Notes under the pieces: generated by a model
Told to the model about the DNA's origin: nothing
Database searches by the model: none
What the model saw: only the letters and a program-made list of their open reading frames with translations
Assembly (NCBI GenBank): GCA_902786545.1
Contig: CADACU010000010.1
Coordinates: 19,589-83,588, forward strand
Reading direction: 5' to 3'
From: an uncultured Anaerovibrio sp.
GTDB lineage: Bacteria; Bacillota; Negativicutes; Selenomonadales; Selenomonadaceae
Length of the DNA: 64,000 nucleotides
Part shown: positions 37,457 to 49,666 of the stretch, in pieces
How the letters are laid out: every line of letters starts with the position of its first letter
How positions within the stretch are numbered: the stretch's first letter is position 1
Position numbers and translations under genes: made by a program

Positions 37457-40400
37457 ATGGCTCGATTTTTTATACATCGTCCGATTTTCGCCATCGTTAT
37501 AGCCATTATTATCGTTATTGTTGGTGTTTTGGCAGGATTCAATCTGCCAATTGCCCAATACCCGCAGATTAGCCAGCCAACTATCAATGTAACCACCACC
37601 TATATTGGTGCTAATGCCAGGGTTATAAATCAGACGGTGGCTCAGGTTATTGAGGAACAGGTAAATGGTACTCAGGGTATGGATTATATGTCTTCCACTT
37701 CGGATGATAGTGGTAGTTATAGCCTGGATGTGAGGTTCACCTTGGGCACCGACGGTAATATGGACTCGGTATTGGTACAGAACAATGTGTCTATTGCCAC
37801 TGCCAGCCTGCCATCTGATGTTCAGGATACCGGTGTTACCACGAGAAAATCATCCAGTGATATGGCTTTTATGTTTGCGATGGTTTCACCAAATGGTACT
37901 TTCAAGCGCACCTTTTTGATGAACTATGCAGATATATATATTGTGGACAGCCTCAAGCGAATTCCAGGCGTAGGCGAGGTATCTTCCTTTGGTTCCACTT
38001 ATGCCATGCGTGTTTGGCTGAATCCGGACCGACTGGCTGAATTGGGGATTACTATTTCACAGGTAAAAACTGCCATTCAGGAGCAGAATATTCAGGCTCC
38101 GGCGGGGACCATTGGTCAACTTCCGGCACCGGCTAACCAGGAAAAGCAGTACACAGGCAGTGTGGAAGGGCGTTTGGTAACTCCGGAGGAATTTGGCAAT
38201 ATTGTTATAAAGGCGAATTCTGATGGCTCCTGTGTATACTTGAAAGATGTGGCTCGGGTTGAGACCGGAGCCAAGACCACCTCGATTATTTCGGATTGTG
38301 ATGGTGCCCCGGCTGCTGGTTATGGTATCAAGCTGACCGATGATGCCAATGCCATGGAAACCATCGGCGAGGTAAAAAAGGTATTGAAGGAAGCCTCCAA
38401 GAATTTTCCGGATGATATGGCATATGTGAATATCATTGATAATACCGAATTTATCAGCGAATCCATTGGCGAAGTGGTGCAAACCTTTAAAGAAGCCTTG
38501 GCGTTGGTTATTATCATCGTATTTCTTTTCCTTCAGAGTTGGCGAGCAACCCTTATTCCGGTTTTGGCTATCCCGGTATCCCTTATCGGAACCTTTGCCA
38601 GCTTTATCATTTTAGGGTTTTCCATTAACACTTTGACGCTGTTTGCTATGGTACTGGCCATAGGCTTGGTTGTTGATGATGCCATAGTAGTGGTGGAAAA
38701 TGTCGAATCCCATATGAAGCGTGATGGACTGGGCCCGGTGGAAGCTACTGAAAAGGCCATGGACGAAGTGCAGGGGCCGGTAGTGGCTATTGCCTTTGTG
38801 CTTTCTGCTGTGTTTATTCCGGTGGCGTTCCTGGGGGGGACGACAGGGGTTCTTTATCGGCAGTTTGCGTTGACAATTGTTGTGTCAATGGCTTTGTCAG
38901 CGTTTATTGCCTTAACGCTTACCCCAGCCCTTTGTGCTACCTTGATGAAGCCACATAATCCAAATTCCAAAAAGAATTTCCTGGATAGATTTTTTGACAA
39001 ATTTAATGATTGGTTTGAACGCACTCAAAATCGTTACATTGGTGGGGTTAGCTGGATAATTGACAACTTTAAGGCTGGGCTGGCTTCACTGCTGGTAATA
39101 TGTGTGTTGGCGGGATTTTTCTATACTAAGTTGCCGTCAACCTTCGTTCCGAATGAAGATCAGGGGTACTTTATCGCTGCAGTGACTATGCCGGAGGGCA
39201 CATCATTGAACCGCACCTATGAAACCATGGATGCGTATAGCAAGGAGCTGCAGGAGGTACCTGGAATATCACATATTTTGAGGGTTTCCGGTTATGATGT
39301 TCTTTCGTCAGGTACCAAGTCCAATGCAGGAGCCATGTTTATCTGCTTGGACAACTGGGGGGAGCGTACTACTGCGGAACGATCCATTATGTCTATTATT
39401 CAAAAGGCTAATCTTTTGGGTGTTGAATACCCTGAGGCACAAATTATGGGTATTCTTCCACCGTCATTACCTGGTTTGGGTATGGTAGGTGGCTGGAGTA
39501 TGGAGCTGCAGGATGTGACTGGTCACACGGATCAGGAGCTGGATGCTATCATAAAGGAAATTTTGACGGCCGCTAATCAACGGCCGGAGTTGGCCATGGT
39601 ATACAGTACTTTCTCGATTGCTTCCCCGGTGTGCAAATATGAGGTGGATCGGGAAAAGGTAAAAAAGATGGGGGTAAACCTGGCTGATGTATTTATGGCA
39701 TTGCAGATAAATTATGGTGGCACCCAGGTTAATGATTTCGTTCAATTTGGACGGACCTATAAGGTTATGATGCAATCTGATGCCCAATATCGAAGCGCAT
39801 CCGAGGCATTGAAGTTCTGTTTTGTAAGTAATAGTTCTGGAGACATGGTTCCGTTGGATAGTCTTCTTACACCAAAACTTTCTACCTCAACTTCAGTTAT
39901 TACCCGCTTTAATGGAGCCCGCAGCGTTAGTATTCAGGGAGCTGTAGCTGAGGGTTACAGTTCCGGGCAGGCGATAGCTGCTATGGAGGAAGTGGTACGG
40001 GAAAAAGCCCCAGCTGGTTTTATGGTGGAATGGTCGGGCCAGAGCCGTGAAGAGAAAAAATCGGCTGGAACCACCGGACAGATTCTGATGCTGGCACTGG
40101 TATTCGTATTCCTCTGTTTGGCAGCCCTTTACGAGAGCTGGAGTGTTCCTTTTGCTGTACTGCTTTCGGTACCTACCGGTTTGTTTGGAGCATTTTTCGT
40201 GCAGTGTAGTTTGCTTTACATTGAGGCATTTTGTGGTCATCTGAATCCTGGCCTGCAAAACAGTATTTATATGCAGATTGGTGTAATTATGCTGATGGGT
40301 CTGGCGGCCAAGAATGCAATTCTCATAGTTGAGTTTGCCAAGGTCCGTGTAGATGCTGGAATGGATCCTATCAAGGCGACCATCGAGGCGGCTGGACTCC

Positions 40401-40615
40401 GATTGCGGCCAATACTTATGACTTCCTTGGCGTTTATTATCGGCTGTCTGCCATTGGCTTTGGCCAGTGGGGCCGGTGCTGCCGCCCGAAACAGCATGGG
40501 TACAGCGGTAGTAGGTGGTATGCTTTTTGCCACTGTTTTGGGTATTTTCCTCATACCGGTACTGTATTGCGTTGTGATGTGGATTACACAAAGAATAAAA
40601 GGCAGCAAGTCGTAA
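37457..40615 (+). CDS. RND multidrug efflux transporter, AcrB/HAE1 type
   Basis: The 1052-residue proton-driven pump begins MARFFIHRPIFAIVIAIIIV and has the usual twelve membrane helices with two large periplasmic loops. The proton-relay Asp pair is visible in GLVVDDAIVVVENVE. AAGGAGG precedes the ATG. With its adaptor and channel it forms a complete tripartite pump, probably for hydrophobic drugs or bile-like compounds. No local repressor gene is present. Confidence 0.96.
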   Translation: MARFFIHRPIFAIVIAIIIVIVGVLAGFNLPIAQYPQISQPTINVTTTYIGANARVINQTVAQVIEEQVNGTQGMDYMSSTSDDSGSYSLDVRFTLGTDGNMDSVLVQNNVSIATASLPSDVQDTGVTTRKSSSDMAFMFAMVSPNGTFKRTFLMNYADIYIVDSLKRIPGVGEVSSFGSTYAMRVWLNPDRLAELGITISQVKTAIQEQNIQAPAGTIGQLPAPANQEKQYTGSVEGRLVTPEEFGNIVIKANSDGSCVYLKDVARVETGAKTTSIISDCDGAPAAGYGIKLTDDANAMETIGEVKKVLKEASKNFPDDMAYVNIIDNTEFISESIGEVVQTFKEALALVIIIVFLFLQSWRATLIPVLAIPVSLIGTFASFIILGFSINTLTLFAMVLAIGLVVDDAIVVVENVESHMKRDGLGPVEATEKAMDEVQGPVVAIAFVLSAVFIPVAFLGGTTGVLYRQFALTIVVSMALSAFIALTLTPALCATLMKPHNPNSKKNFLDRFFDKFNDWFERTQNRYIGGVSWIIDNFKAGLASLLVICVLAGFFYTKLPSTFVPNEDQGYFIAAVTMPEGTSLNRTYETMDAYSKELQEVPGISHILRVSGYDVLSSGTKSNAGAMFICLDNWGERTTAERSIMSIIQKANLLGVEYPEAQIMGILPPSLPGLGMVGGWSMELQDVTGHTDQELDAIIKEILTAANQRPELAMVYSTFSIASPVCKYEVDREKVKKMGVNLADVFMALQINYGGTQVNDFVQFGRTYKVMMQSDAQYRSASEALKFCFVSNSSGDMVPLDSLLTPKLSTSTSVITRFNGARSVSIQGAVAEGYSSGQAIAAMEEVVREKAPAGFMVEWSGQSREEKKSAGTTGQILMLALVFVFLCLAALYESWSVPFAVLLSVPTGLFGAFFVQCSLLYIEAFCGHLNPGLQNSIYMQIGVIMLMGLAAKNAILIVEFAKVRVDAGMDPIKATIEAAGLRLRPILMTSLAFIIGCLPLALASGAGAAARNSMGTAVVGGMLFATVLGIFLIPVLYCVVMWITQRIKGSKS

Positions 40616-40734
40616 AATATTTGCTGTTAAATCGTATGTAAGTATAAAAATAAGGACACATAGAAGCAGTTATATTTTTCCAAAGGAATTGTACAGCTAC
40701 TTTCAGTGTCAGGCCAAAATATTAAAGGCGGATG

Positions 40735-40765
40735 GTGGGACTATAGTCAACACCTCCGCCTGTTT
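40735..40765. terminator. Terminator between the RND gene and mgsA
   Basis: AGGCGGA and TCCGCCT pair, with an inner GGTG/CACC extension, between convergent genes. Confidence 0.65.
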
Positions 40766-40793
40766 CAATTCATATGCTGTTGTGGTACAAAGA

Positions 40794-41183
40794 CTATTCG
40801 CTTACAACCGTATTTTCAATAGACACATACTTTAACATAATATGTCCGCTTTTACGGTTGGTGGCCAGTGGTACATTATGAACATCGCACAGCCTGAGCA
40901 GAGCGTTGATATCTGGCTCATGGGGCTGAGAAGTTAATGGGTCCCGCAGGAATATTACATAGTCGATTTCACCGGTTGCCACCTTTGCCCCGATTTGCTG
41001 GTCACCGCCAAGAGGGCCGGACATCATTGTTTCAACTTCTATACCATATTTTTCTTTGATTCTTGTGCCGGTAGTGTTTGTAGCAATCAAGTGACATTCC
41101 TGCAGCAAATCCAGATGCTGCCCCACAAAGTCCAGCATTTCATCCTTTTTCTTGTCATGTGCGATTAGCGCAATAGTTTGCAT
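40794..41183 (-). CDS. mgsA: Methylglyoxal synthase
   Basis: The 129-residue enzyme converts dihydroxyacetone phosphate to methylglyoxal and phosphate, an overflow branch from glycolysis. Motifs include [13 protein letters not shown], the phosphate loop [20 protein letters not shown] with the catalytic Asp region, and [18 protein letters not shown] precedes the start. It stands alone between convergent efflux and divergent STAS genes. Confidence 0.96.
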
Positions 41184-41315
41184 ATAATTCTACCTCTTTT
41201 CTGTTCAACAGTTTTACAAAACACATTATCATAGCATATCTCTAAAATTGTATTTACTATATCATATTTTTTCAACCAAAGAAAATATAATCTTGGTCAG
41301 TTTTTTTGTATCATT

Positions 41316-41349
41316 CATTTCCAAATATATTTCATTTCCAAATATATTT
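41316..41349. repeat. Two-copy 17-bp direct repeat
   Basis: The 17-bp unit CATTTCCAAATATATTT occurs twice in tandem upstream of the STAS gene. It could be a repeated regulator site or simple slippage. Confidence 0.7.
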
Positions 41350-41421
41350 CTGAATTTGCAGGGATTTTACCAAGGCGAGGAGAATCGTACAATAGTATTT
41401 TGTTAGAAAGGGGTTGGCGCC

Positions 41422-41718
41422 ATGCGATATGATAACAGCGAGGGAGTCCTCACAATTTTTCTTAAAGGAGATATGGATGCTCTGAATGCCACTGACATAC
41501 AGCAGGAAATTGGCGAGATACTTAAAACGCAGAAGGGGACTTCCCTGATATTTGATGCCCGGGAACTGGAGTATATTTCCAGTGCTGGCTTGCGGGTCAT
41601 CCTGACTATACAAAAAGAGCTGGGCAGTAAAATTTCTGTCATCAACCTGTCGGAGGAGCTGCTGGAAATTTTTAAAATGGCAGGTTTTCAGTATTTGATG
41701 GAGCTTAAGGGAGTATAG
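41422..41718 (+). CDS. STAS-domain anti-sigma-factor antagonist
   Basis: The 98-residue protein is a single STAS domain of the SpoIIAA/RsbV type. The phosphorylatable Ser is in YISSAGLRVI. When dephosphorylated such proteins bind a kinase-type anti-sigma factor and free its partner. The next gene is the matching PP2C phosphatase, but no HATPase kinase or sigma factor is encoded here. AAAGGGG lies before the ATG. Confidence 0.9.
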   Translation: MRYDNSEGVLTIFLKGDMDALNATDIQQEIGEILKTQKGTSLIFDARELEYISSAGLRVILTIQKELGSKISVINLSEELLEIFKMAGFQYLMELKGV

Positions 41719-41741
41719 GCAGGCTTCGGAGGAGGCCGGAA

Positions 41742-43952
41742 ATGGATAAACTACGCAAAATTATCGAAATTATTTTGCAGCGGGGCGAACAGAATATTTA
41801 TCGGCGCATTCTTCATACAGCTCTTTGGGGTAGTTGTGTAACTTTTATGGTCATGGGAGGAATTTTCCTTGTCAGCATGTTGATATTGCATTATGGATTG
41901 CATGAGCAGGGCAAAGATTTTTCCCAGAAAATGGGTGATTATCTGGAGAAGAATTTCCAGGAAGAAGTAAAGGACCGGCTTACGGAAACTGCTGAATTGA
42001 GGGCCCAAATGGTAGGGCGACTGCTGAAAGGCTGCTCTCTTAGTGTGGAATATTTGGCTGAAACAATGTCCGATACTCTGCAACACCCAGTTGATTACAA
42101 ACCAAAGGAACTGCCAGTGGCTAATTTTGAAGAAGTGGCGGACAATGTACCTTATGTATATTACCTTCCGGAGCTGTTGAAGCAGGGGCTGTCCCCGGAG
42201 CTGAATCAAGAGGTTGCCGTAGTGTCATCGGTTGAGGATGATATCAGGCGGATGAGCCGTCGCTATCAAGGTAGTATTTTGGCCGTATCTACCAAGGGAT
42301 ATCTGATTCGTATGGATATGCTCGATTTGGATGGAAAAGGGGCAGTGCTGAGTCATGAACCCTTGTGTAGTACCTATGACTATAGAAATAAAGAATGGTA
42401 TCAGTCCGTCATTACGGAAGACCGATTGATATTTACCAACCCATATATGGCGTCATATGGCCGTCCATGCATATCTATATGTGCACCCTACCATGATGCT
42501 GGTGGCGTTGCCGGGGTGGTAGTGGCGGATATTGATACGGACTATATATGTAGGCAAATGGACGGTTCAGATGTAGATGGCTCTAATTTTAGCTTTATTA
42601 TGGACCGAAAGGGTGATGTCATTATCTCTTCCCGCAAGGAGGGGGCCTTTGCTGCTACTGATATGAATCAGAACCTTACGAAGGCAACCGACAAGGCTAT
42701 GGCTGAAACAGCTGAGCGTATGGTAGCAGGTGAAACGGGAATTGCTTTGGTGCATGTTGATGGAGGCGAATACTATTTGGCGTATGCTCCTTTACCGGAG
42801 ATGGGCTGGAGTGTAGGCACTGTTATAGATACGACAGTAATATCTGCCAGTGGTGATCAGGCTGAGGAATATGTCAACGATGTTTTTGAAAGCTATGATT
42901 ATGAATTGGGAAAATTCTTTTTGATTAAGGCTATTGGTGCCATATTGCTGTTTGTTCTGACCTTATATCTGATTTTACGGCGCAATGTAAAAATGGCTCG
43001 GGGGTTTGCCGAGCCTATAAACACCCTTATAAAGGGGGTAAAGGAAATTGCGGAGGGGAATTTGGACCGAAAGCTGTCCATTCAAACCGGTGATGAACTG
43101 GAAACCTTGGCGGAAAGTTTCAATAATATGACAAATGAGCTGACCATATATATGGACAGTCTTGCCAAAACCACCGCCCAAAAAGAGCATATTGAAACGG
43201 AGCTTTCCGTTGCTACCCGCATTCAGACCGGTATGCTGCCGGATGGCACCCATCCTTTCCCGGAGCGCCAAGATTTTGATATGGCGGCTCTGATGCGCCC
43301 GGCCAGAGAAGTGGGAGGGGATTTTTATGATTTCTACTTTTTGGATGAGCACCATCTGGTCCTGACGGTGGCCGATGTGTCTGATAAAGGGGTTCCAGCG
43401 GCTCTTTTTATGGCGATTTCCAAGACCATGCTGAAGGAAAACCTTTTGTTTGCCGGTGATCCGGAACGGCTTGGTGAGGTGTTTACTGAAACCAATAGCG
43501 CACTCATCAGGAGCAACAAAGAGAATATGTTTGTGACAGTTTTCTGTGGCGTGCTGGATACTGTTACTGGGGTGTTTACCTATGTAAATGCCGGACACAA
43601 TCCGCCGGTTATTCGTCAGAATGGTCGGTGTCGATATTTGGAATTGGCACAACACCCTATTATGGGGATAGTGGAAGATTTATCTTATGGTGTGTCGCGA
43701 TTGCAATTAAAAAATGGCGATGCCATATTTCTCTATACGGATGGTGTTACTGAAGCTGCGAATGAGAAGAGGAAGTTTTCTGTCTCCAGGGACAGTGCTG
43801 AACATGAGATAGAGGGAATATATGACGCAGTTCGTGAATTCGCTCAGGGTGCAGCCCAGTCGGATGATATTACCATGCTGGAATTGATATATTATGGTTC
43901 ATCACAGGAAAGTCACATGCTGGATGAACAGAAATATTATGCCGCACCATAA
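41742..43952 (+). CDS. Membrane-bound RsbU/SpoIIE-type PP2C phosphatase with extracellular sensor
   Basis: The 736-residue protein has a membrane helix near 30-52, a large extracellular Cache-like sensor (about 60-385; ICAPYHDAGGVAGVVVADID), a second helix at about 390-412, HAMP (about 415-470), a linker helix, and a SpoIIE phosphatase domain from ~500 with EVGGDFYDFYFL, VADVSDKGVPAALFM and YTDGVTEAANE. It should dephosphorylate the STAS protein encoded 23 bp upstream in response to an outside signal. AGGAGG precedes the ATG. Confidence 0.93.
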   Translation: MDKLRKIIEIILQRGEQNIYRRILHTALWGSCVTFMVMGGIFLVSMLILHYGLHEQGKDFSQKMGDYLEKNFQEEVKDRLTETAELRAQMVGRLLKGCSLSVEYLAETMSDTLQHPVDYKPKELPVANFEEVADNVPYVYYLPELLKQGLSPELNQEVAVVSSVEDDIRRMSRRYQGSILAVSTKGYLIRMDMLDLDGKGAVLSHEPLCSTYDYRNKEWYQSVITEDRLIFTNPYMASYGRPCISICAPYHDAGGVAGVVVADIDTDYICRQMDGSDVDGSNFSFIMDRKGDVIISSRKEGAFAATDMNQNLTKATDKAMAETAERMVAGETGIALVHVDGGEYYLAYAPLPEMGWSVGTVIDTTVISASGDQAEEYVNDVFESYDYELGKFFLIKAIGAILLFVLTLYLILRRNVKMARGFAEPINTLIKGVKEIAEGNLDRKLSIQTGDELETLAESFNNMTNELTIYMDSLAKTTAQKEHIETELSVATRIQTGMLPDGTHPFPERQDFDMAALMRPAREVGGDFYDFYFLDEHHLVLTVADVSDKGVPAALFMAISKTMLKENLLFAGDPERLGEVFTETNSALIRSNKENMFVTVFCGVLDTVTGVFTYVNAGHNPPVIRQNGRCRYLELAQHPIMGIVEDLSYGVSRLQLKNGDAIFLYTDGVTEAANEKRKFSVSRDSAEHEIEGIYDAVREFAQGAAQSDDITMLELIYYGSSQESHMLDEQKYYAAP

Positions 43953-43980
43953 AAAAGTTAAAAAAATTACACCAATGCTA

Positions 43981-44009
43981 TTGATTTATAAGCTAAAATG
44001 TTTTATACT
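43981..44009 (+). promoter_or_regulatory. Promoter of structured RNA copy 1
   Basis: TTGATT and TATACT are separated by 17 bp, beginning 28 bp after the phosphatase stop. The same layout recurs before copy 2. Confidence 0.72.
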
Positions 44010-44015
44010 TTAGTC

Positions 44016-44179
44016 ACACAGATATCACATTCTTTCCATCTTGATATGGATTTCTTTTTTCATATCATACTCCTTCCTATGGTTGTTGGAAGATAGGCGC
44101 CAACAACGGGCTATAGGATTCTCCCACTTTTCTTTATAGCCAACTTCACAACAGGGTCGCTACGGCGGCCCATTTTTGT
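44016..44179 (+). ncRNA. Unrecognised structured small RNA, copy 1
   Basis: The predicted transcript of ~164 nt starts ACACAGATATCACATTCTT. It folds into GATATG/CATATC (44043-44066), GTTGTTGG/CCAACAAC (44082-44107), GGCTATA/TATAGCC (44109-44141), and a terminator GGGTCGC-TACG-GCGGCCC (44154-44171) followed by ATTTTT. The terminator loop is of the UNCG class. No open reading frame of note lies inside. It has a second copy at 44788-44953 with stem-preserving changes. I match it to no known RNA family; 6S RNA was considered and does not fit. Confidence 0.75.
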
Positions 44180-44260
44180 TGCCATGAAATAGCTTTACTG
44201 TTGATTTTAGATTGGTTTTCAGGCAGTTTCCGTTATGAGGAATCGAATCTTTTTTTGAAG

Positions 44261-44292
44261 CAAAAAAAGAAGCCGCCATGCGACTTCTTGGG
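44261..44292 (-). terminator. Terminator downstream of GG-leader peptide gene 1
   Basis: On the minus strand AAGAAG-T-CG pairs with CG-G-CTTCTT and is followed by a run of T, about 90 bp after the peptide stop. Confidence 0.7.
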
Positions 44293-44381
44293 AGGGGTCG
44301 ATGCCAGGTACTCGGCATCTGGGTTTTATTGGAAATCGGTTTTTTAGATGGAAAGTGATTGGTAATATTTTGTAAGGTTAT

Positions 44382-44630
44382 TTAAGCTTCGATCAGCGGA
44401 CCGGTTTTAGTGAGCGGGCCAGTTTCATTAAGAGGACCGGTTTCATTGAGAGGAGCGATTTCATTTATAGGGTCCGGTCCTGGAGCCAAAGGTCCGTGCG
44501 TCTTTTCGTACGGTTCGTGATTCAATGGATTAGTATTGTCAGTCTTGCCCAGCGGTCCGGTTCCACCTGCTACATTTTCCATTTCCGCTACATTTAGTTC
44601 GCTCTTTTTCATAGTATCGGTCTTTTTCAT
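44382..44630 (-). CDS. Double-glycine-leader peptide with Pro-Leu repeat core
   Basis: The 82-residue product begins MKKTDTMKKSELNVAEMENV followed by AGG, a leader like those cut by peptidase-containing ABC exporters. The predicted mature part is acidic and repetitive, with APLNET, GPLNET, GPLTKT and GPLIEA in series. It could be a bacteriocin-like, signalling or modified peptide; no exporter or modifying enzyme is in the window. AAAGGAG precedes the chosen ATG; a longer frame from 44723 lacks support. It lies antisense between the two structured RNA copies. Confidence 0.72.
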   Translation of the reverse strand: MKKTDTMKKSELNVAEMENVAGGTGPLGKTDNTNPLNHEPYEKTHGPLAPGPDPINEIAPLNETGPLNETGPLTKTGPLIEA

Positions 44631-44667
44631 ATTTAAGCACTCCTTTCTGCTGTTAAGTTTTTCTTCT

Positions 44668-44708
44668 TGTCTATACATACGATTAGTTGTGAATATTATT
44701 ACAAAAAA
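44668..44708 (-). promoter_or_regulatory. Shared promoter block of GG-leader peptide 1
   Basis: On the minus strand TTTTTTGTAAT and CGTATGTATAGACA are separated by 16 bp. The same two blocks with the same spacing stand before the second GG-leader gene (45809-45849). The left block is not a standard -35. Confidence 0.65.
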
Positions 44709-44752
44709 GTCAACTGCTGTCAAAAAAAGTTAAAAATTTTACACTATAACTA

Positions 44753-44781
44753 TTGCTTTATAGGTTAAAATGTTTTATACT
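44753..44781 (+). promoter_or_regulatory. Promoter of structured RNA copy 2
   Basis: TTGCTT and TATACT are separated by 17 bp. Flanking sequence matches the copy 1 promoter closely. Confidence 0.72.
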
Positions 44782-44787
44782 ATGTAT

Positions 44788-44953
44788 ACACAGATATCAC
44801 ATTCTTCCATTTTTGATGTGAAATACATTGTTTCACATCAAATGCTTTTCTATGATTGTTGGATAATAGGCGCCAACAATAGGCTGTAAGGTTCTTCGTA
44901 CCTTTCCTTATAGCTATTTCGCACACTGGGTTGCTTCGGCAGCCCATTTTTAT
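44788..44953 (+). ncRNA. Unrecognised structured small RNA, copy 2
   Basis: This ~165-nt transcript has the same order of elements as copy 1: ACACAGATATCACATTCTT; a 12-bp hairpin TTTGATGTGAAA/TTTCACATCAAA (44812-44842); ATTGTTGG/CCAACAAT (44855-44880); GGCTGTAAGG/CCTTATAGCT (44882-44915); and a terminator GGGTTGC-TTCG-GCAGCCC (44928-44945) with a T run. Changes from copy 1 keep pairing: a G-C becomes A-T in the second stem and a C-G becomes T-A in the terminator stem. The gap between the peptide gene and the His-rich gene is otherwise empty. Confidence 0.75.
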
Positions 44954-45004
44954 TTTGCTGTCATTTTCGTTACAGTTGAATGATGGGGAAATGGCCTTTA
45001 TAAT

Positions 45005-45036
45005 AAAAAAACAGAGCCATTATTGACTCTGCTTTT
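45005..45036 (-). terminator. Terminator of His-rich peptide gene 1
   Basis: On the minus strand CAGAGTC and GGCTCTG pair (one G-U) and are followed by TTTTTTT. Confidence 0.82.
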
Positions 45037-45066
45037 AGAGGGATGTATGGAGATTTGTTTTACTTA

Positions 45067-45342
45067 TTAGCCACGCCCTTTGTCGGTAATACCGGTTTCC
45101 CATTCAAACCAATCATTATGGCGTATGTGCTTTTTGTTGTTTTTGTGATTTTTCTTAACTTCCTTATGATATTCAGGTTTTATTTCTTTTTTGTGATGTT
45201 TGTTATGTCTGTTATGGTGATGTTCGGACAATTCCTGATGAATGGTTGTTTTCTGGTCATGGTGTGGGGTGGCTGCAAAAGCAGGAACTGCGGTCAACAA
45301 CATAATACCGGTAATAATGGCTGCTATAGTTTTCTTTGTCAT
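45067..45342 (-). CDS. Secreted histidine/lysine-rich peptide 1
   Basis: The 91-residue product has a signal peptide (MTKKTIAAIITGIMLLTAVP, cleavage near AFA-AT). The mature chain is packed with His and Lys (TPHHDQKTTIHQELSEHHHN, then HNKHHKKEIKP) and ends in GRG. Its paralogue at 50419-50676 shares the signal, the start TPHHD and the end GRG. Metal binding in the periplasm is a natural guess from the histidines; a polyanion-binding role is the alternative. Its upstream region carries a response-regulator-like direct repeat. Confidence 0.8.
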   Translation of the reverse strand: MTKKTIAAIITGIMLLTAVPAFAATPHHDQKTTIHQELSEHHHNRHNKHHKKEIKPEYHKEVKKNHKNNKKHIRHNDWFEWETGITDKGRG

Positions 45343-45370
45343 AATTATCGCCCCTTTCTTTTATGTGTTT

Positions 45371-45402
45371 ATTATAGGGCTGTATTTTAAGAAAATCCTA
45401 AG
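45371..45402 (-). promoter_or_regulatory. Direct-repeat operator and -10 of His-rich gene 1
   Basis: On the minus strand CTTAGG-N5-CTTAAA is followed by nine bases and TATAAT. The hexamer-5-hexamer form is like PmrA/QseB-type OmpR-family boxes. The paralogue has the same spacing throughout. Confidence 0.6.
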
Positions 45403-45452
45403 CATAGGATTAAAAGTAGCTTAGATTTTTCGTGATTATTTTACTCCGGATG

Positions 45453-45497
45453 CCAAAAGAACTGCCAATGATGAAAACATCAAATGCGGCAGTTCTT
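45453..45497 (-). terminator. Terminator of GG-leader peptide gene 2
   Basis: AAGAACTGCC and GGCAGTTCTT form a 10-bp stem with an inner GATG/CATC stem and a TTTT exit on the minus strand. Confidence 0.8.
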
Positions 45498-45554
45498 CGG
45501 GCCTATTAGCAGTCCTTCACTAAATCCTCTTAGATGAATGGACTGTTATGTTGT

Positions 45555-45758
45555 TTATGCAGCTTTTTGTGGTGGATTCTGTTGTGGCTGTTTAGGCTGA
45601 GGGTTATCCTTTTTAGGTGTTGCGATATCCCTTATCAAATCAATAATATCCCTAACTAGCTGAAACGGCTTACGGCGTGGCCCATGGAGACGAATTCTTG
45701 GGCGGCCTCCTGCTACGGTGTTCAGTTCCATTTCATTGAGTTCAATTTTCTTGCTCAT
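45555..45758 (-). CDS. Double-glycine-leader cationic peptide
   Basis: The 67-residue product has the leader MSKKIELNEMELNTVAGG. The mature part of 49 residues starts with a basic stretch (RPRIRLHGPRRKPF), continues with an amphipathic helix (LVRDIIDLIRDIA), and ends in a Pro/Gln tail. This is compatible with a class II bacteriocin-like or membrane-active peptide. No immunity gene or ABC exporter is seen. AAGGGAG precedes the ATG. It shares leader style and promoter block with the gene at 44382-44630. Confidence 0.75.
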   Translation of the reverse strand: MSKKIELNEMELNTVAGGRPRIRLHGPRRKPFQLVRDIIDLIRDIATPKKDNPQPKQPQQNPPQKAA

Positions 45759-45808
45759 AGTATTATCTCCCTTCTTGCATGGGGTGTGTACCCATGTTTC
45801 TTGCTCTC

Positions 45809-45849
45809 TGTCTATATATACGGACCATGAAGGGAATCATTACAAAAAA
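45809..45849 (-). promoter_or_regulatory. Shared promoter block of GG-leader peptide 2
   Basis: On the minus strand TTTTTTGTAAT and CGTATATATAGACA are separated by 16 bp, as before the first peptide gene, ending 50 bp before the start codon. Confidence 0.65.
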
Positions 45850-45872
45850 ATAAAAATACGAGGAGTTGGCTT

Positions 45873-46400
45873 ATGCAATATATTTCATTTTTTGATTCTC
45901 CAGTAGGTAAGCTGTATCTTACAGCAGATGAACAGAGCTTAAAAGGGGTGTATTTTGAACGGGAAAAGGGCAATAGCATTCCTATTGAACTAAATGATGT
46001 GGAATTTAGTGATAATCATCCGGTGATTATGGATACCAAATTGTGGCTATCTCTGTATTTTAATGGCAGTGTTCCGGATTTTGTTCCCAATATTTCTTTG
46101 TCAGGAACGGAATTTCGCCAACAGGTATGGGAAGTTGTGAAACAAATACCCTATGGGCAAACCATGTCCTATGGTGAAATAGCCCAGATTGTAGCTCAGG
46201 AGCGGGGCACTAAACCGTCTGCTCAGGCCGTTGGGAGTGCAGTGGGCAATAATCCTATTCCTATTATAATCCCCTGCCACCGAGTATTAGCAGCTGGTAA
46301 GTTTATCGGCGGTTATAGTGGTGGTATAAATAATAAGAAGTTTCTTCTGGATTTAGAACAGATACAGTATAATTTCACACGCTGGAAATTAGGTGTATAA
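45873..46400 (+). CDS. ogt: Methylated-DNA-protein cysteine methyltransferase
   Basis: The 175-residue protein repairs O6-alkylguanine by moving the alkyl group to its own Cys135 in the IPCHRVL motif. The DNA-binding EFRQQVWEVVKQIPYGQTMS segment and the GGYSGG loop are present. It is the short Ogt form without an Ada regulatory domain. GAGGAG precedes the ATG. The gene lies divergent from the GG-leader peptide gene. Confidence 0.95.
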   Translation: MQYISFFDSPVGKLYLTADEQSLKGVYFEREKGNSIPIELNDVEFSDNHPVIMDTKLWLSLYFNGSVPDFVPNISLSGTEFRQQVWEVVKQIPYGQTMSYGEIAQIVAQERGTKPSAQAVGSAVGNNPIPIIIPCHRVLAAGKFIGGYSGGINNKKFLLDLEQIQYNFTRWKLGV

Positions 46401-46466
46401 TAGGAGTCAGAGAATTATTTAATATATGTTCAATAATGAAGGGGTATTTCAAGGGGGTTGGTTTAA

Positions 46467-46961
46467 ATGAAAAGAACGCTTCTAGCTGTAGTTGTGTTAC
46501 TGTCGCTATGTCATAGCATAGCGTGGGCTCACTGGATGCCACGCGAGGAGATGTATGTCGGTGGCGTAGGAGCAGGATGCACACTGGAATATGTTACAAG
46601 CATTTATGGTGAGCCCCAGGAAAAAAGATGGTTCAATACAGCTGGTGTGCGTGGTGTGACATATATTTATTCAGATGCTTTTTCCATTACCGGGCGCACA
46701 GGCAAAGATGATCTGCGGCAAGAAGAGGAACTGCTGGTGGTGGGCTTCTCTCTGAAGGATAATTCCCTTGCTACACCAAATGGCCTCACTGTTGGGATGC
46801 CTTATGAGACAGTGTCAGCCATGTTTGGAAGTGTAGATAAACATACTATTGGTGGCCGAACATTCTATTCATATGGTGCGCCAAATTCTGCAGTTGAGCT
46901 GACATTTTATGTCAATGACAAGGGGATTATTACGGAAATCTATGAGGGGACGGAGTTTTAA
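46467..46961 (+). CDS. Exported protein of unknown function
   Basis: The 164-residue product has a signal peptide (MKRTLLAVVVLLSLCHS, cleavage near AWA-HW). The mature domain has repeated short motifs (GVGAGCTLEYVTSIYGEPQE and GLTVGMPYETVSAMFGSVDK) that look like two SmpA/BamE-like or DUF-type beta-alpha units. AAGGGGG lies before the ATG. No neighbour indicates its role. Confidence 0.72.
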   Translation: MKRTLLAVVVLLSLCHSIAWAHWMPREEMYVGGVGAGCTLEYVTSIYGEPQEKRWFNTAGVRGVTYIYSDAFSITGRTGKDDLRQEEELLVVGFSLKDNSLATPNGLTVGMPYETVSAMFGSVDKHTIGGRTFYSYGAPNSAVELTFYVNDKGIITEIYEGTEF

Positions 46962-46973
46962 GGGGAATACATA

Positions 46974-47036
46974 GCCAGCTATACCCCAAGAGTCCTTGAG
47001 AAATGCGGTTTTATTCCTTCTGGAGTCCATTGGTGA
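46974..47036 (+). pseudogene. Remnant of a GNAT acetyltransferase C terminus
   Basis: A 20-codon frame ending in TGA encodes ASYTPRVLEKCGFIPSGVHW, which matches the acetyl-CoA-domain end of GNAT enzymes (A-S-x-R-V-L-E-K-x-G-F). No start or upstream domain is present. In the rest of the 46962-47305 gap I see only terminators. Confidence 0.5.
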
Positions 47037-47071
47037 TGAAGGACCTCAATTTTATAGAGAAAGCTAATGCA

Positions 47072-47098
47072 CGGCCCCAGCGAAAGCTGGGGCTTTTC
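47072..47098 (+). terminator. Strong hairpin terminator
   Basis: GCCCCAGC and GCTGGGGC form an 8-bp stem with a GAAA loop and TTTT. A near copy is at 57473-57498. Confidence 0.8.
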
Positions 47099-47140
47099 GT
47101 ATGTAAGGGGGACAGCTCCCCATTCGCCTCCGCTCCACCC

Positions 47141-47175
47141 TAAATAAAAACGGCACCTTGCGTAACAAAATGCCG
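47141..47175 (-). terminator. Terminator region of the 185-residue gene
   Basis: On the minus strand CGGCA and TGCCG pair around a 15-nt loop and are followed by TTTTTATTT. A longer AT-rich stem lies just before it. Confidence 0.55.
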
Positions 47176-47305
47176 TTGAGTAAGTTATTTTTTTACTGTC
47201 CTTGCAGTAAAAATTAACTCATCACTTTTATTCAAATTAAGTGTATATGTGTATTTTCCATTATTTTGCTATGACTATAAAAAACATGTCAAGGGCATGC
47301 CTTTT

Positions 47306-47863
47306 CTAATGCTTGGGTTTATTATGCAACTGGGCGGCTTTTTCATCAGCCTGAATTTTCTTTATGGCTTTGTCAGCAATGAATTGGTGGAGCAGCTGCA
47401 GGAAGGTGGTCCGGTTTATGGCCAAATTATCCTTCCGGAAAATTTTGTGCTGCATATCCTTGATGTTGTAGCCGGTGCATTGGGTGGTGTTGGCCCACTG
47501 ATCCAATCCCAGAAAGAAGATGTAGGTGGAATCCAGCAAGGTGAATTGGCAATTCAGCCCGTTCTGGTAATCTTCTTCTATTCGCAGCCGTGGTTTGGGT
47601 ACGCATCGCAGTGTCTCCGAGTCGAATATACCAAAGGGCGTATTCCCCAGCATAATATACCGGGAGTGGAGCCAGCCACTTCGGGTGTCCTGAATTTCCT
47701 CATCGCCGCCCCGCAGGGGTGAGACCTTGTTGGGGCCGATGAGGAAATTATACAAATTGTGGTAGTCAATGATGTACTTGTTCATGTCCACGGTGGAATC
47801 AAATATTTTTAGATGGCGGATTGCTTCGTAATAATTCTCCGCCCGGGGCCGGTAGAGAACCAT
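47306..47863 (-). CDS. Hypothetical protein, 185 residues
   Basis: I do not recognise the family. The product is soluble, rich in aromatic and charged residues (YYEAIRHLKIFDSTVDMNKY; WLHSRYIMLGNTPFGIFD), with a basic C-terminal helix (FIADKAIKKIQADEKAAQL). AAAGGAG stands nine bases before the ATG. It has its own terminator. An overlapping plus-strand frame is less convincing because it lacks a ribosome site. Confidence 0.65.
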   Translation of the reverse strand: MVLYRPRAENYYEAIRHLKIFDSTVDMNKYIIDYHNLYNFLIGPNKVSPLRGGDEEIQDTRSGWLHSRYIMLGNTPFGIFDSETLRCVPKPRLRIEEDYQNGLNCQFTLLDSTYIFFLGLDQWANTTQCTGYNIKDMQHKIFRKDNLAINRTTFLQLLHQFIADKAIKKIQADEKAAQLHNKPKH

Positions 47864-47981
47864 GGGATTTTTGCTCCTTTCTATAGGAAATAGATTGAAT
47901 AATCGAATGCTTGTTTGTTATAATAATAGCAGAATAGTTGTTCGATTACAAGCGAACTTTTTGCGGTAATTTAAAGGTTTT

Positions 47982-48104
47982 TTAGGTTTTTGTAGAAGTG
48001 TGTACCCGTGTTTGAATAGAGGTTTCCAGCACGGAAATCCACTTTTTACAGGTGCGGGTGTCAATTCCAACTGCATTTACGATTAAATCAACATTTGGAT
48101 GCAC
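47982..48104 (-). pseudogene. Remnant of an AAA ATPase/DUF4143-type gene
   Basis: The minus strand encodes HPNVDLIVNAVGIDTRTCKK followed by WISVLETSI. This resembles the winged-helix stretch of DUF4143-family ATPases (new-subfamily HTH, then 'W-x-x-x-L-E'). No ATPase domain is present. The surrounding 47864-48334 gap has no intact gene. Confidence 0.4.
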
Positions 48105-48123
48105 AAATAATCGTAAAAAGCAA

Positions 48124-48222
48124 GTGTTAATGTTTGATATAGTGGATTTGGATGAGCCTTGCAATGAGGACTTGCTGGAATCTATAAATGTGCAGCAGTT
48201 TTCTTTTGCCCGAAATGTATAG
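48124..48222 (+). pseudogene. Possible ACT-domain remnant
   Basis: A 32-codon frame (FDIVDLDEPCNEDLLESI, ending FARNV) resembles the C-terminal ACT strand-helix pattern of serine metabolism enzymes. It has no upstream domain. Weak evidence. Confidence 0.25.
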
Positions 48223-48334
48223 CAGCTGGAAAGAAATATATTGTTTTTGCAGGATTACGTTGTAGGAGGATAGAATTGTACAGGACAAGGTATTATGAAT
48301 AACCAGTGGGTTCTTATATGAGGAGGATTTTACT

Positions 48335-49666
48335 ATGAAAAGGAAAAACTTTGTGGCAATATGGTTTTGCGCTTTATTGCTGGCAATGAGCACGCTGTGG
48401 ATAAGCGAGGCAATAGCTGCGCAAGCTGAACAGCCATCAGGTATTTCGATGGCTGTAGGGCGGACAAAAGCTTCCACAAGCTTCAGGGAGGTAATGATTA
48501 ACAATCCTGATATACGAATATTGGTGGAAAAGTCTATTAAACAGGCATCAATTATCAATCCGGACAGGAAAACCAATCCAGTGCAATCTTTGAATGAGCT
48601 CTATGGTTTCCTGGACTATACAGTAACCTGTATGCCTTGGAATATCATGCCAGAGGAACGATACGGAAACTTTTCCACAAAATGTGATCAGAGCATCCTC
48701 TATGTGTACTGGCTTTTGGATCAACCCCTGGAAGAGCTTAAGGACAAAGAGCTGTTCTATCCGTCTGTAGAGTACCTTGAACCAATATATACATGGTTGA
48801 CAGAGTACAACAATACATGGCGGGATTTTCTGGATTCAGAAGCATCGTGGAAACAGGAGTACTTGGATATGCTTCTTCGTGATCCATCCTGGAATCTTGA
48901 TAAGGGGTGGTATGAATCACCGGATAACTGGCATTCATTCAACGAATTTTTCTCCAGAAAGCTGTCAAATGGAAATGCCCGTCCGATTGCCGAACCTAAC
49001 GACGATAGGGTTGTTGTTTCACCTGCGGATTCCCTTCCTCAGGGCGTGTGGAATATCGATGAATCCGGAAGGTTCTATGCCGATCCTATTAAAAGGGAAG
49101 ACGGTGTAATAATTAAGGATTCCACTTTTGTGTCTGTTGAGCAGCTGCTGGGGGAGCCGGGAGCTGAGTACGCGAAATTATTTCACAACGGAATATTGAC
49201 ACATACGTATCTAAATTATGATGATTATCACAGATATCATTTCCCTGTGTCCGGAGTCGTTGAAGCAGTATATAAAATTCCTTATGCCAATGCGGTTGGA
49301 GGAATTGTTTATTGGGACAAGAATAAAGATTTGTATGTTTTGGAATCAAATTCCCTTTCATGGCAAAGTGTGGAGACAAGAGGCTGTGTTCTTATAAAGA
49401 CAGACTATGGAATGGTGGCCGTTATTCCAGTGGGGATGGGGCAGGTTTCCAGTGTTAATTTTATTGAAACGATAAAGCCTGGGACAAAAGTGAAAAAGGG
49501 GGACGAACTGGGCTATTTCTTATTCGGTGGTTCCGACTGTGTAATGCTGTTTGAAGGCAAATCCGGTTTTAAACTGTCTGTAGGTAAAGGTGAAAAAGGC
49601 GGTTATTCCGCAGGTTATCGTCATGTCTTCTGTAGGGAAGAATATGGGAGATTTTTGGGTAAATAA
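48335..49666 (+). CDS. Exported phosphatidylserine decarboxylase-related protein
   Basis: The 443-residue protein has a signal peptide (MKRKNFVAIWFCALLLAMS, cleavage near IAA-QA). An N-terminal region of ~120 residues resembles the domain that precedes some PSD-like enzymes. The PSD fold follows: FNEFFSRKL, ARPIAEPNDDRVVVSPADS, NYDDYHRYHFPVSG, and FGGSDCVMLFEG where the self-cleaving Gly-Ser of PSDs sits. A pyruvoyl decarboxylase acting outside the inner membrane on a lipid or amino acid is inferred. GAGGAGG precedes the ATG. Confidence 0.82.
   Translation: MKRKNFVAIWFCALLLAMSTLWISEAIAAQAEQPSGISMAVGRTKASTSFREVMINNPDIRILVEKSIKQASIINPDRKTNPVQSLNELYGFLDYTVTCMPWNIMPEERYGNFSTKCDQSILYVYWLLDQPLEELKDKELFYPSVEYLEPIYTWLTEYNNTWRDFLDSEASWKQEYLDMLLRDPSWNLDKGWYESPDNWHSFNEFFSRKLSNGNARPIAEPNDDRVVVSPADSLPQGVWNIDESGRFYADPIKREDGVIIKDSTFVSVEQLLGEPGAEYAKLFHNGILTHTYLNYDDYHRYHFPVSGVVEAVYKIPYANAVGGIVYWDKNKDLYVLESNSLSWQSVETRGCVLIKTDYGMVAVIPVGMGQVSSVNFIETIKPGTKVKKGDELGYFLFGGSDCVMLFEGKSGFKLSVGKGEKGGYSAGYRHVFCREEYGRFLGK

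Follow-up and report, generated by a model that had tools for sequence, protein, structure and literature searches.

A covariation-supported, multicopy family of structured small RNAs in Anaerovibrio that may act as sibling anti-Shine-Dalgarno regulators

We identified a family of structured small RNAs (sRNAs) in Anaerovibrio, with three homologous copies in the genome studied here and three in Anaerovibrio sp. JC8. Two of them lie in the window, a 64,000-nucleotide stretch of contig C10 in a 2.23-Mb draft genome of an Anaerovibrio sp. (Selenomonadaceae, Negativicutes). An earlier note on this DNA had described them as twin copies of an unrecognised RNA; both are present, but "twin" understated the number of copies. 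Comparison of the sequences indicates that the stems of the family are kept by compensatory change. The family itself is new, and the kind to which we assign it, sibling trans-acting sRNAs with anti-Shine-Dalgarno (anti-SD) motifs, is already known. We lean towards the reading that the copies are co-regulated siblings that would block ribosome binding, working like the LhrC and NmsR sRNAs of other bacteria, on the strength of sequence and analogy.

The coordinates given earlier for two intergenic RNA-like sequences of ~165 nt were confirmed, and the features of the window copies are collected in Table 1. Identity between copies 1 and 2 is 77% across 230 nt that take in the promoter, and 78% when counted in the two blocks (110 and 68 nt) that align without gaps. 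The 17-bp-spaced promoter that the earlier note assigned to both can be read directly in the sequence, and so can the common 5' sequence: the predicted RNA 5' end, ~7 nt past the -10 element, starts with ACACAGATATCACATTCTT in either copy. A consensus promoter scan listed the copy 1 promoter (9 of 12) and placed that of copy 2 below its threshold; sigma-70-like sites in the scanned region were overall mildly over chance (7 vs 3.8 expected). A conserved block 5' of the -35 element, absent from the earlier note, accompanies the sRNA promoters. As had been claimed, both predicted folds contain three hairpins in the same order and a UNCG terminator, the latter a G+C-rich hairpin with a UACG loop in one copy and a UUCG loop in the other, followed by a T run. 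Terminator-like sites in the scanned region exceed chance (7 vs 0.8 expected). The folding energies lie well below those of dinucleotide shuffles (z -4.9 for copy 1 and -5.4 for copy 2), with 0/200 shuffles as stable for either. Single-base gaps between the two copies break a common reading frame, which argues against a coding frame; each copy has its own promoter and terminator, as sibling trans-acting sRNAs would. An Rfam search of the whole window returned three tRNAs and no match to the sRNA copies. Over the sRNA region its best score, for another family, was 13.3 bits where the gathering cut-off is 86, and LhrC was not matched, in keeping with the view that the RNA is unrecognised.

Table 1. 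Features of the two sRNA copies and the neighbouring double-glycine-leader peptide ORFs in the window.
Feature	Position	Strand	Basis or remark
sRNA copy 1	44016..44180	+	shuffle-tested fold, alignment, terminator scan
Copy 1, hairpin 1	~44042-44067		
Copy 1, CU-rich linker	44068-44081		
Copy 1, hairpin 2	44082-44107		
Copy 1, hairpin 3	44109-44141		
Copy 1, terminator stem	44154-44171		
Copy 1 promoter, TTGATT-17-TATACT	43981..44009	+	-35 43981-43986, -10 44004-44009; read from sequence, promoter alignment, scan
Copy 1 upstream block, GTTAAAAAAATTACAC	43957..43972	+	common to copy 2 and C16, partly to JC8-C5; possible activator site
sRNA copy 2	44788..44955	+	shuffle-tested fold, alignment, terminator scan
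Copy 2, hairpin 1	~44812-44842		
Copy 2, hairpin 2	44855-44880		
Copy 2, hairpin 3	44882-44915		
Copy 2, terminator stem	~44927-44946		
Copy 2 promoter, TTGCTT-17-TATACT	44753..44781	+	-35 44753-44758, -10 44776-44781; read from sequence, promoter alignment
Copy 2 upstream block, GTTAAAAATTTTACAC	44729..44744	+	promoter alignment
GG1, ORF for a double-glycine-leader peptide of 82 aa, between copies 1 and 2	44382..44630	-	ORF list; possible target
GG2, ORF for another double-glycine-leader peptide, of 67 aa	45555..45758	-	ORF list; possible target

The third copy in this genome lies on contig C16 and was reached through a search with the upstream block. There the upstream block is followed by ACTATTGC and, after a spacer of 17 nt, by TATAAT; hairpins with CU-rich linkers and a terminator come next. 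A covariance model built from copies 1 and 2 alone, run over 9.3 kb with filters off, scored this copy at 43.9 bits (E 1.2e-10). A three-copy covariance model (R3, from copies 1, 2 and C16), in the making of which no JC8 sequence was used, matched JC8 at C10:80045-80185 (E 5.3e-4) and C6:67858-68020 (E 8.6e-4), so that homologues with the further covariation anticipated in the earlier note were obtained. Both JC8 copies have AACTATTG upstream; they carry AACTATTGATT with TATAAT 18 nt further on, and the linker CATACTCCTT(C/T)CTT, and they keep hairpins 1 and 3 plus the T-run hairpin; hairpin 2 is absent. The remaining JC8 copy, JC8-C5, was located by its promoter and aligns poorly to the RNA model (R3 E 0.594). 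We include it on the basis of the promoter, a partial hairpin likeness to C16 (GCTGG...ATTCCTCCAGC) and a 3' module (AGACGTA.ACCGGGATA..., a stem and a second terminator) that JC8-C5, JC8-C6 and JC8-C10 have in common. All three JC8 copies continue into this second module with its large G-poor loop and second terminator, and for two of the three the predicted fold allows the inner terminator to pair with the final one.

Between copies 1 and 2, three pairs differ at both bases yet can still form, and five pairs differ at one base. The two compensatory changes that had been named before are both real, and the third, an A-U to G-C exchange, lies in hairpin 1. Among the three copies of this genome, 98.1% of 107 pair cells are standard pairs (82.9% in shuffles) and 16 of 36 pairs show double-sided changes (6.1 in shuffles); for five copies, JC8-C5 being left out, the values are 97.5% of 160 cells (75.6%) and 22 of 36 pairs (9.4), in alignments of few, related sequences that were fitted to the model structure and therefore lean towards structure. 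When the pairing partners were shifted by 1-3 columns, 39-50% of cells paired in the three- and five-copy alignments. The first helix, of three pairs, is doubtful, as RNAalifold did not predict it from the three-copy alignment. The earlier suggestion of selection on RNA structure has thus gained from a third paralogue and two JC8 homologues, in which the stems persist through numerous double-sided changes.

The promoters of copies 1, 2, C16 and JC8-C5 are invariant in 27 of 68 alignment columns. Although the promoters are conserved in these four copies, the upstream block is not enriched genome-wide: TTAAAANNTTTACA occurs in this genome at 34 places with at most one mismatch, and its reversed control at 35. 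We therefore rejected the block as a genome-wide regulator site; its use lay in pointing to C16.

With looser filters across 16 Anaerovibrio genomes, the R3 places read confirmed copies just in this genome and JC8, and a further copy was confirmed in none of the other 14. With stricter filters over 41 relatives, two distant places were read and rejected, and strict filters over 189 genomes of the bacterial family gave no additional accepted copy among the places read, and one new weak match (G125:C58, E 0.048) besides. Over the same number of family genomes, model R1 returned two strong matches, which are the window copies, and 12 others that were read and found unconvincing. Strict filters applied to every search that covered more than 40 genomes, and only a small number of candidates was scored in each genome (15, or up to 69 for R3 on the 41 relatives); R1 missed C16 under strict filters, so the absence of copies elsewhere is not firmly shown. 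One further place in this genome (G000:C36:16938-17073; R1 E 3.9e-4, R3 E 0.0027) has CU-rich loops and a terminator end. It is without the shared promoter, overlaps an ORF on the other strand and was left out of all counts. The 21 weaker R3 places that were read comprised the two JC8 homologues (C10 and C6), the C36 place again, G010:C68:772-887 (-), and others that look like terminators, tRNA or coding DNA. The G010 place (R3 E 0.258) has the words ACTCCTT, ATAGGCGTC and CAAACTTCACACAGGG scattered as in copy 1, is without the ACTATTG promoter just upstream and is perhaps a decayed copy. Beyond its four training promoters, a promoter profile (R2) gave 20 weaker places that were read, none of them sRNA-like. 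The exact hairpin-2 pattern found no match in the genome_contigs and viral_contigs collections, from which records near the genome of the window were possibly excluded. A promoter pattern matched three genome contigs and one viral contig; one of the genome contigs, NZ_ANBM01000005.1 of JC8, had contributed its promoter to the pattern, and the other matches precede or sit inside apparent coding sequence.

Several known systems resemble the Anaerovibrio family, as judged from the parts of the reports cited here. LhrC1-5 of Listeria monocytogenes are several homologous copies under a single regulator, LisRK; CU-rich motifs in their loops and single strand bind mRNA at the Shine-Dalgarno region, and promoter DNA upstream of -53 matters (PMC4132741). 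The Anaerovibrio RNAs are also multicopy and have CU-rich linkers and a conserved upstream block at about the place of that promoter DNA, but have another set of hairpins and no sequence or Rfam match. NmsRA and NmsRB of Neisseria meningitidis are two tandem siblings, 70% identical, with a near-equal fold and two anti-SD motifs (PMC5362039). Related neighbouring siblings of similar fold occur in Anaerovibrio too, with accessible anti-SD motifs beyond chance in copy 1 and not in copy 2; homology is not detectable, the neighbouring copies are separated by a gene, and others are found elsewhere. The csRNAs of Streptococcus pneumoniae are likewise multicopy, similar sRNAs, which act additively under one regulator, CiaRH (named in PMC4132741), whereas the Anaerovibrio upstream block was tied to no known regulator. 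In a search of an open paper library, no paper retrieved was, by title and start of abstract, on an sRNA of Anaerovibrio or Selenomonas, and for sRNAs and Hfq of Negativicutes the library yielded, on the same basis, work on OLE RNA-associated proteins alone. The present family, with copies in the named strain JC8, is a covariation-supported sRNA family in a bacterial group for which we found no such RNA described in this library. It suggests that a further bacterial class has sibling anti-SD sRNAs, whose homology to those already described is not detectable.

Exposed anti-SD stretches, such as ACUCCUUUC or ACUCCUUCC, are found in four of the six copies. Scored with a list of anti-SD 5-mers of our own choice, the accessible count was reached by few shuffles for copy 1 (4/200), C16 (0/200), JC8-C6 (2/200) and JC8-C10 (5/200), with no significant excess in copy 2 (51/200) and JC8-C5 (24/200). 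Depletion of unpaired G was rejected as an anti-SD sign because the shuffles were equally low or lower for copies 1, 2 and C16. Hfq is encoded in 16/16 genomes of the genus, although the G007 gene is a fragment that lies at the edge of a contig. By sequence, the siblings have a common promoter type and a fold, kept by compensatory change, of a 5' single strand, hairpin 1, a CU-rich linker, one or two further hairpins and a terminator of the intrinsic kind; each would be transcribed independently. Whether or not Hfq takes part, we infer that they could pair with the ribosome-binding sites (RBSs) of several mRNAs and so block translation; divergent copies could contribute dose and target range, and one regulator at the conserved upstream block might induce the siblings together. 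By analogy with LhrC and NmsR, the RNAs probably act in trans as repressors at RBSs, and the mRNAs of double-glycine-leader (GG) peptides are possible targets of some siblings.

GG genes adjoin several copies: those of the window, where the antisense GG-leader peptide gene reported earlier between the copies is indeed in place (ORF 44630 to 44382), and JC8-C6, with GG genes 0.7 and 1.3 kb away. The family could be imagined as dedicated silencers of a GG (bacteriocin-like) peptide regulon, whose RBS AAGAAAGGAGU would be paired through ACUCCUUUCUU, with little else as a target, an account that we regard as unlikely. In predicted pairing against 198 background RBSs, the C16 linker places 9/10 GG-peptide RBSs within the top 8.6% and the JC8-C6 linker 8/10 within the top 5.6%. 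These ranks come from ten RBSs that are related to one another and from segments chosen post hoc, and the cut of the GG1 site lay 3 nt upstream of that used for the rest. Of the 13 segments, the remaining 11, those of copies 1 and 2 among them, have no set-wide preference of this sort, the JC8-C10 linker favouring GG2 alone (3.0%), and a regex scan of 10.8-14 kb around C16, JC8-C5 and JC8-C10 found no GG gene. Whole-sRNA duplex energies, by which GG1 and GG2 rank 16-17, 22-30 and 8-12 of 42, were set aside as uninformative because they ignore the RNA's own stems. With a predicted preference in two of six siblings, GG-peptide mRNAs are possible targets, a lead rather than a result. We regard an extended version as equally unlikely: genus-restricted, fast-diverging sRNAs would form a translational brake on an exported GG-peptide regulon, each sibling tuned through its linker to a subset of the mRNAs, and would travel with some peptide loci by segmental duplication.

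Loop motifs might instead act without base pairing, as protein-binding decoys of the CsrA-sponge type. In copy 1 and C16 the loops of hairpins 2 and 3 do begin with GGA, as does the hairpin 2 loop of copy 2, but hairpin 3 of JC8-C6 and JC8-C10 carries GUUUCCC at the place of GGA, and we consider such decoys quite improbable. That the RNA serves a gene 3' of it as a cis-acting leader or attenuator, for which a same-strand DNA-alkylation-repair gene 95 nt past the C16 terminator could be cited, is very improbable. The downstream genes differ between copies, and past copies 1 and 2 the first convincing same-strand gene start is at 45873 (the + strand ORFs before it, up to 115 aa, overlap other-strand ORFs), which makes a leader role unlikely for the window copies. 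Equally slight is the chance that the sequences have no function as RNA and are a repeat that duplication or mobile DNA has spread: JC8-C6 and JC8-C10 do lie within a 354-bp duplicate of 94% identity that includes the end of the upstream GIY-YIG gene, the latter in an island that also encodes a phage integrase and an amidase, but every helix has double-sided changes, diverged copies keep promoter and terminator, copies per genome are few, and neither phage records (for copy 1) nor plasmid records (for copy 2) gave a match.

The gene 5' of copy 1 encodes a phosphatase of the SpoIIE/RsbU type (PF07228, E 3.1e-42) that also contains Cache and HAMP domains, so the adjacency to an RsbU-type gene recorded earlier is true; a tie between the two is unsupported. 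G002 has a 77%-identical orthologue and G015 has fragments of one, and in blastn of window positions 40001-49000 against these loci the likeness stops at 43912, with no RNA after the gene, from which we conclude that the sRNA is not tied to the phosphatase gene. At least six further homologues of this phosphatase type (E 1e-60 or better) occur in the genome, making seven places in all, at window positions 41742-43952 and on contigs C4, C9, C59 and C60, several in tandem. On G002:C3, the phosphatase orthologue is followed 3' by a frame that, read by eye, opens STAS-like and continues with what seems to be a condensation-type domain.

Also in the window, positions 45067-45342 (-) encode a small protein rich in His and Lys, whose start resembles a signal peptide and whose match to the acid-shock protein Asr falls below the cut-off (E 5.3e-4, 20.8 bits vs 50). 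The GG1 ORF is without a Pfam or NCBIfam match. Across 12 GG-peptide gene sequences compared in all, those of several Anaerovibrio genomes have a promoter-like layout of (T)GTAATA, ~16 nt and CGTATRTATAGACAAGA, and a second group has TAACACTT, ~14 nt and GGATATAAAGGACAAGA. The layout, which we take to resemble an alternative-sigma promoter, is also seen 5' of window positions 44630 and 45758 (-).
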